Source: Ignavibacteria bacterium
Lineage (GTDB): Bacteria; Bacteroidota; Ignavibacteria; Ignavibacteriales; Ignavibacteriaceae
Assembly: GCA_030684555.1 (NCBI GenBank)
Contig: JAUXVN010000128.1
Location: forward strand, 1 to 64,000
Reading direction: 5' to 3'
Length of the DNA: 64,000 nucleotides
The position numbers and the translations under genes were made by a program. The notes under the pieces were generated by a model. The model was given only the letters and a program-made list of their open reading frames with translations, was not told the DNA's origin and made no database searches. Positions 55,914 through 56,068 of the stretch are shown piece after piece. Within the stretch, counting starts at the first letter, position 1. Each line of letters begins with the position of its first letter.

Positions 55914-55953
55914 TTGCGGGGGCAGTTCGCCGCGGCGAATTGAACCTACATCC
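55914..55953 (-). repeat. Partial copy of the initiator tRNA 3' half with an inserted palindrome
   Basis: TGCGGGGGCAG and TTGAACCTACATCC reproduce the acceptor/T-arm end of the adjacent tRNA (GCGGGGGCAGGAC, TTGAACCTACAACC). In place of GAC there is a 14-base palindrome, TTCGCCGCGGCGAA. It looks like a tRNA end left by an integration event or a tRNA copy invaded by a small palindrome. Confidence 0.65.
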
Positions 55954-55964
55954 AGTTTACATAT

Positions 55965-55991
55965 AAAAAAATCCGGATGAACCGGATTTCT
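55965..55991 (-). terminator. Terminator of the initiator tRNA
   Basis: On the minus strand AAATCCGG, a four-base loop and CCGGATTT are followed by a T-run directly after the tRNA 3' end. The structure is complete and well placed. Confidence 0.8.
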
Positions 55992-55995
55992 TTTG

Positions 55996-56068
55996 TAGCG
56001 GGGGCAGGACTTGAACCTACAACCTTCGGGTTATGAGCCCGACGAGCTACCAATTGCTCCACCCCGCG
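55996..56068 (-). tRNA. Initiator tRNA-Met (CAT anticodon)
   Basis: The 73-nt cloverleaf reads CGCGGGGTGGAGC... on the minus strand, with anticodon CAT in GGGCTCATAACCC. Three consecutive G-C pairs in the anticodon stem and the unpaired C1-U72 end are the features of initiator tRNA, which separates it from elongator tRNA-Met and tRNA-Ile2. The T-arm is GTAGG TTCAAGT CCTGC. CCA is not encoded (CTACAAAAG follows). A terminator hairpin is next to its 3' end. Confidence 0.92.

Follow-up and report, generated by a model that had tools for sequence, protein, structure and literature searches.

What does a fragment of an initiator tRNA (fMet) gene represent when it lies next to a complete copy of the same gene, and why is it interrupted by a palindrome? 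The question arises at one end of a type I restriction-modification island in a contig from an Ignavibacteria bacterium, of which a stretch of 64,000 nucleotides (the window) was analysed.

The broken initiator tRNA copy

The intact gene, a tRNA-Met (CAT) found by ARAGORN, occupies 55995..56068 on the minus strand (Rfam places it at 55996-56068 with 63.7 bits) and is followed on that strand by its own terminator-like hairpin (55965..55989), which separates it from the partial copy at 55913..55953, also on the minus strand. The copy was delimited by collinear exact matches, with its outer ends set by eye. Its first exact piece, TGTAGGTTCAA, corresponds to tRNA positions 48-58 (55950-55940) and its second, CTGCCCCCGC, to positions 62-71 (55925-55916); between them, in the T loop, the 14-bp palindrome TTCGCCGCGGCGAA (55926..55939) replaces GTC. 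Behind the copy lies what may be a decayed second terminator (55882..55906, minus strand), picked out by eye and resembling the hairpin that follows fMet in another genome, G026.

The initial annotation had proposed a partial tRNA copy downstream of the tRNA and its terminator, and the copy is real: its chain score is 20, compared with a best of 11 elsewhere among 1264 window segments, and of 5000 mononucleotide shuffles of the surrounding 300 bases, 11 reached a score of 14. The palindrome, too, is exactly where the annotation had placed it, the GTC replaced on the tRNA strand being GAC on the plus strand. What the window holds is one intact fMet gene, a terminator, a single palindrome-broken 3' part and the decayed second terminator, and we consider it likely that the broken copy, a solo displaced arm, is the relic of a tRNA-linked element.

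Linkage of small GIY-YIG nucleases to tRNA genes

A search with the tRNA region returned matches in 55 of 59 genomes. Partial fMet copies carrying TTCGCCGCGGCGAA or a related palindrome, either in the T loop or after the anticodon loop, were seen in G003, G004, G009, G010 and G020, and in other genomes 5'-half copies lie upstream of fMet with a palindrome replacing the D loop. In G003, G004, G009 and G020, a small open reading frame (ORF) encoding a GIY-YIG nuclease sits between the tRNA and such a copy. Three of these (G004, G009 and G020), which belong to other genera, combine the nuclease gene with a T-loop break; part of the window's family shares the break seen in its copy. At many of the fMet loci among those listed, the intact tRNA alone was found.

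To follow the nuclease itself, the protein from G004 was used as a query and matched 54 of 61 family-sample genomes at 1e-5, whilst a profile (A1) built from 17 tRNA-linked nucleases matched 126 of 198 phylum-sample genomes at 1e-8. Among the 30 loci listed from the phylum search, 28 have a same-strand tRNA no more than 447 bases from the nearest nuclease. The named loci come from Bacteroidia-, Balneola- and Rhodothermia-type organisms, together with one Marinimicrobia. In the window's own genome, three of five A1-type loci are near a tRNA (tRNA-Ser, tRNA-Lys and tRNA-Asn) and two have none nearby.

For a quantitative comparison we pooled 166 unique nuclease matches from loci L091-L241, omitting sequence duplicates and matches of less than about 160 bases, and dropped 24 with less than 330 bp of flank on one side, leaving 142. 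A tRNA gene lies on the same strand within 200 bp of 93 of these 142 nuclease genes and within 1500 bp of 124, fractions that are not unbiased, since the profile came from tRNA-linked nucleases and some regions were picked by hand. The strand contrast provides an internal control: no nuclease gene (0/142) has an opposite-strand tRNA within 200 bp. The tRNA is upstream of the nuclease in 78 of the 93 cases and downstream in 18, three of them having both. Broken down by source, linkage within 200 bp was seen for 20/25 nuclease genes returned automatically by the family-sample search and 24/32 returned in the same way by the phylum-sample search, for 17/34 from hand-picked regions (20 regions, chosen mostly for tandem arrays), for 1/3 from window-genome loci and for 31/48 from named loci.

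A group I or group II intron carrying an endonuclease was considered and rejected, since Rfam at gathering scores found tRNA as the sole match and no intron family in 16 loci, and the tRNA is intact beside the ORF.

Anatomy of the broken copies

On the side away from the tRNA, the nuclease gene is flanked by a partial copy of that tRNA (score of at least 14) in 80 of the 93 linked cases, compared with none in the reversed region, two in the reverse complement and none with shuffled tRNA. Sixty-seven of the 80 copies are split into at least two tRNA segments, and the breaks are palindromic: the longest inverted-repeat arm reaches at least 5 in 61 of these 67, where shuffling the breaks gives 12.95 and sampling random segments from the same loci gives 14.1; it reaches at least 6 in 56, where the corresponding values are 3.6 and 4.3. 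Eleven of the 13 unsplit copies show, by eye, a palindrome within them or at their margin; L182 lacks one and L172 is doubtful. In two of the 11, L123 and L129, the program had taken the palindrome-bearing copy as the tRNA.

The position of the break is largely fixed by the type of tRNA. It falls at 50/51^59/60 in 3/3 split Asp copies, at 38^57 in 3/4 split Cys copies and at 22^23 in 3/3 split Arg copies, and begins at 34-38 in 22/23 fMet copies from outside the first family search; of the five fMet loci from the window's family in this analysis, three have a break starting at 56-58, one at 38 and one at 12. Palindromes may differ at one and the same position, as with CCCCGA..TCGGGG and CCCGCC..GGCGGG in Cys copies. 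Of the near-pure insertions, several of which are at related loci, 16 of 17 map by eye to a loop (D, anticodon or T) or to its margin. Examples are AGGAGGTCG[TCCCGACTAGTCGGGA]AGTCTCG in an Asp copy from a five-unit array in G002, GGGTTC[palindromes]GAATCCC in a Ser copy and GGATA[palindrome]GAGC in an Arg copy in which the displaced piece comes first (class II, see below).

Further solo relics were noted at L266 and L267 (tRNA-Asp, in G019 and G074), where palindrome-broken Asp copies precede an intact tRNA-Asp; neither locus yielded a nuclease.

The nuclease and its tRNA partners

All 17 A1 members match the Pfam GIY-YIG family (PF01541). Y11, Y21, G23, R31, H35 and E68, which we take to be the catalytic residues, are invariant among them. 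The matched part is free of stop codons in 84 of the 93 tRNA-linked genes. By sequence, the closest solved structures are those of UPF0213 proteins and SLX1, with a weak match to intron-associated endonuclease 1. A phage origin for the nuclease was tried and rejected: one fMet-type protein gave weak matches to five phage records.

Nuclease lineages largely track the identity of the neighbouring tRNA. On a tree of 87 of the 93 nucleases (six were omitted for having more than one stop, fewer than 60 residues or an unassigned tRNA), tRNA identity requires 14 changes, where the minimum is 10 and the mean after shuffling 45.6; none of 200 shuffles was as low. A 59-row tree that omits 28 rows from named loci, found with the fMet-type query, gave 15 changes compared with 37.7 after shuffling, again with 0/200 as low. 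Identities that do not cluster are Arg, Ala and Val on the larger tree and Asp, Ala and Val on the smaller one, and single forks are unsure because the alignment has few columns.

Comparisons between congeners

Further clues come from closely related genomes that differ at the tRNA. G010 and G035 can be aligned over two long flanks around fMet at 87-89% identity. G035 has a single intact fMet gene, but the corresponding flanks in G010 meet a 5' half, its D loop replaced by TCCCGATAAATCGGGA, on one side and on the other a 3' half carrying TTCGCCGCGGCGAA and a second, imperfect palindrome; between the two halves lie an intact fMet and its terminator. In a second pair, G004 and G078, the fMet region of G078 aligns on its downstream side with a palindrome-broken copy in G004 and on its upstream side with an intact fMet. 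From the alignments we read both pairs as cases of a displaced tRNA piece, a pattern that local tandem duplication would fit too. In the extra modules of G010 and G004 the stretch between the two tRNA pieces lacks a nuclease gene, and duplication may therefore not require one in cis; either a nuclease may act in trans or duplication driven by the palindrome may be primary.

The closest parallel to the window is G034, in which the orthologue of the copy in G009 is present in decayed form and the 5 kb compared yielded no nuclease. The five-unit Asp array of G002 is absent from the matching tRNA-Asp in all three congeners compared (G030, G069 and G077; fewer upstream bases were matched in G030). 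An exact empty site for the nuclease-bearing cassette was sought here and given up, the flank downstream of the array having diverged in the congeners, so that only presence or absence can be read.

A candidate tRNA-gene homing cassette

The explanation that we favour is that the partial copy in the window is the leftover arm of a homing cassette for tRNA genes, and on balance we hold this to be probable. A complete cassette comprises an intact tRNA, a gene for a GIY-YIG nuclease of ~85 amino acids (UPF0213/SLX1-like) and a displaced copy bearing a GC-rich palindrome. In class I the order is tRNA, nuclease, displaced piece, and in class II displaced piece, nuclease, intact tRNA. We infer that the nuclease would cut the matching tRNA gene in its T-, anticodon- or D-loop part, depending on the lineage, and that repair of the break would copy the cassette in. 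The tRNA pieces would serve as homology arms and an intact tRNA would thereby be kept, whilst replacement of the cut site by the palindrome would spare the displaced piece a second cut. Repair out of register could generate tandem arrays; loss of the nuclease, or the spread of modules that lack it, could leave solo arms like that of the window.

Several observations count against this explanation. The intact tRNA retains the proposed cut sequence, no copy was detected at 13 of the 93 linked nucleases, and the palindromes are also dispersed outside tRNA copies. Nor was an A1-type GIY-YIG gene found in the 64-kb window (tblastn, 1e-4); between hsdR and the copy, a tblastn search with the limit raised to 10 gave no convincing GIY-YIG remnant (best E 0.08).

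A broader proposal, which we advance tentatively and at somewhat less than even chances, is that bacterial chromosomes house homing elements specialised, lineage by lineage, on single tRNA genes (fMet, Ser, Leu, Asn, Cys, Asp, Arg and others). Such elements would enter by splitting a tRNA whilst supplying an intact one, and the palindrome that takes the place of the target loop would render the displaced piece uncuttable, a mark of self-immunity captured from or shared with palindromes dispersed in the genome.

Relation to known systems

The nearest precedent is SegB of phages T4 and T6, a free-standing GIY-YIG homing endonuclease of the phage tRNA cluster (PMC13096335; PMC2988022). According to the portions of PMC13096335 available to us, the T6 enzyme cuts inside tRNA genes, and a motif, RAWTSGAAC, present at 23 of 83 cut sites, enhances cutting and is not strictly required. 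The same portions report that the tRNA and segB locus cannot be amplified in tandem without the nuclease activity of SegB; the authors ascribe the amplification to microhomology recombination (PMC13096335). The reverse complement of the motif, GTTCSAWTY, fits the T-loop sequence GTTCGAATC when the letters are compared. As with SegB, so far as those excerpts describe it, a GIY-YIG nuclease adjoins tRNA genes; the cassettes, however, are chromosomal, whereas SegB is found at one locus in phage, and the excerpted accounts of SegB include no palindrome-broken displaced tRNA copy. Among solved structures, the cassette proteins are nearest to those of UPF0213 and SLX1.

A second likeness is to the mORFs of fungal mitochondria, which replace the 3' end of a gene: atp6 in Allomyces and atp6, atp9, cox2 and nad3 in Glomus, in the extracts of PMC3630166 to hand. 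There too an endonuclease ORF arrives with a replacement 3' end and the native end is left downstream (PMC3630166). In contrast to the cassettes, which target tRNA genes of bacteria and include a mirror-image class II, the mORFs occupy mitochondrial protein genes and are mostly of the LAGLIDADG type, and the extracts mention no palindrome in the end that is displaced. As regards end replacement of the mORF type, G010 and G004 do have displaced fMet pieces, but their extra modules lack a nuclease between the tRNA pieces.

A search of open-licence PubMed Central found, among the matches listed, no description of bacterial tRNA-linked GIY-YIG cassettes, and the three passages that a text search for tRNA drew from the survey of the GIY-YIG superfamily (PMC1564403), two of which are entries in its reference list, contain nothing on linkage to tRNA. 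The element thus seems to be of a known kind, the free-standing homing endonuclease, in a variant that is undescribed as far as the literature was searched. If the proposal is right, essential tRNA genes across many genomes of one phylum house tiny selfish elements, bacterial counterparts of phage SegB and of the fungal elements that replace gene ends, which would be easily missed because their ORFs match just the general GIY-YIG family and their scars resemble tRNA debris. It would also account for tandem nuclease arrays at tRNAs and for some of the GC-rich palindromes of such genomes, and it raises a question that can be put to the test: whether a displaced target bearing the palindrome can no longer be cut, and what protects the intact tRNA.

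Dispersed palindromes

The palindromes themselves occur widely. TTCGCCGCGGCGAA has 11 sites in the genome of the window, compared with none for the pattern read backwards, and is present in 10 of 21 genomes, the reversed control being absent from all 21. TCCGCC..GGCGGA has 77 sites in G009 and 13 in the window's genome, with a control of 0 in both, and none in G163. Both sequences are thus found, as dispersed repeats are, in many near-identical genomic copies. Larger inverted repeats (flanking arms of at least 6) enclose 11 of the 42 TTCGCCGCGGCGAA sites, where 1.9 would be expected, but a general preference of the palindrome for hairpin loops was rejected as not general, eight of those 11 sites coming from the window's own genome.

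These counts lend some weight to a different order of events, in which small dispersed palindromes would insert into hairpin loops, either driving the local duplication of the tRNA or following upon it, the GIY-YIG genes being bystanders in tRNA hot spots. Nuclease-less modules such as that of G010 agree with this, as do the excess of sites within inverted repeats and the dispersal of the two palindromes. We nevertheless regard it as unlikely: bystanders would not explain why the nuclease genes are linked to tRNA genes on the same strand, why the break is largely constant for each type of tRNA or why the nuclease tracks tRNA identity.

Short palindromes in many copies, some of them in or near structured RNA genes, are familiar as the small dispersed repeats of cyanobacteria, Rickettsia palindromic elements and REPs. 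The palindromes described here resemble these in being short and numerous, but differ in that the breaks fall in loop regions of displaced tRNA copies adjoining a nuclease gene, and in that the type of nuclease largely predicts the tRNA.

A patch related to the palindrome had also been claimed at 381-391 of the window. A similar sequence, TCCGCCGCGGCGTA, does stand at 380-393, with two mismatches to the palindrome, but it is weak on its own and close to chance, since 16 of 100 shuffles of the window reached two matches at no more than three mismatches.

Other palindromic features were seen in passing. The patch lies within nested inverted repeats at 255-420 (arms AACCTTATTACCTTAGTAA), a MITE-like arrangement. 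The ten other TTCGCCGCGGCGAA sites of the window's genome (L043 and L054-L062) often lie between ATGCTGA..TCAGCAT or ATTCCG..CGGAAT arms, with flanking inverted repeats of at least 6 at eight of the ten. On contig C34 of G129, at about 6988-9814, GIY-YIG matches alternate with TCCGCC..GGCGGA palindromes in what is apparently a long array. At 20659-20686, 24891-24916 and 30408-30437 the window contains three long palindromes without mismatch, of 28, 26 and 30 bp respectively; two are GC-rich.

The restriction island and the attachment-site explanation

The neighbour of the copy is a type I restriction-modification island (44768..55487, minus strand) in which Pfam matches identify HsdR, HsdM and HsdS together with Fic and SIR2 genes. 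The 3' ends of tRNA genes are classical integration sites, and the initial annotation had suggested that the copy is an attachment remnant of the element that brought the type I system; the copy would then be the attR of an integrase-borne island inserted into the initiator tRNA gene. Synteny with G001, the only same-genus genome compared, agrees in part. It covers the tRNA side of the window, including the terminator-like hairpin, down to 55961, 34 bases past the tRNA and shortly before the copy, leaving the island on the variable side of a breakpoint at 55960..55961; the tRNA is thus a breakpoint. No blastn match to the window (1e-5) was found in the 10,341 bases on the island side of G001; a looser search gave a single 30-base match (E 0.002), and tblastx gave scattered short pieces that were left uncounted.

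G001 also lacks the partial copy, which counts against the homing cassette. Copy and island may therefore be linked at the level of the genus, G001 having neither the copy nor an island match within 10.3 kb. The annotation had looked for counter-evidence in relatives with the same copy and no island, and this was borne out only in part: palindrome-broken fMet copies of the same kind occur in other genera of the family, several of them beside GIY-YIG genes.

In its particulars the attachment-site explanation fares badly, and we consider it very improbable. A third copy of the tRNA 3' end, which it predicts near 44,400 on the far side of the island, was not found, and none of the ten proteins scanned with Pfam at 42.7-58.3 kb (one of them without a match) belongs to an integrase family. 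An internal palindrome is not expected in the identity block of an integrase, yet the copy is broken by one, and breaks of this kind are shared by copies of fMet and other tRNAs that adjoin GIY-YIG genes. What survives of the suggestion is its kind: the copy does have the look of something left behind by a mobile element that exploits the tRNA gene.

Plain decay of an old tandem tRNA duplicate that has lost its 5' half, with a palindrome there by accident, would suit the decayed orthologue in G034, near which no nuclease was found, but is hardly credible when the identical tRNA position is interrupted in several genera and 61 of 67 split copies have palindromic breaks.

Three minor features of the island may be added. 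Within the type I operon (46344-55487) the Fic gene is placed between hsdM and hsdS. The SIR2 matches fall in two adjoining ORFs of 112 and 788 amino acids, perhaps a single split gene. At and past the 3' end of the hsdS ORF, the segments 44519-44592 and 44699-44772 form a near-identical pair beginning with CTCTGCAAAATTTGTGTAGCTCGAAACTCTGTTTCG and containing CGAAAC..GTTTCG-type hairpins, perhaps a decayed duplicate.
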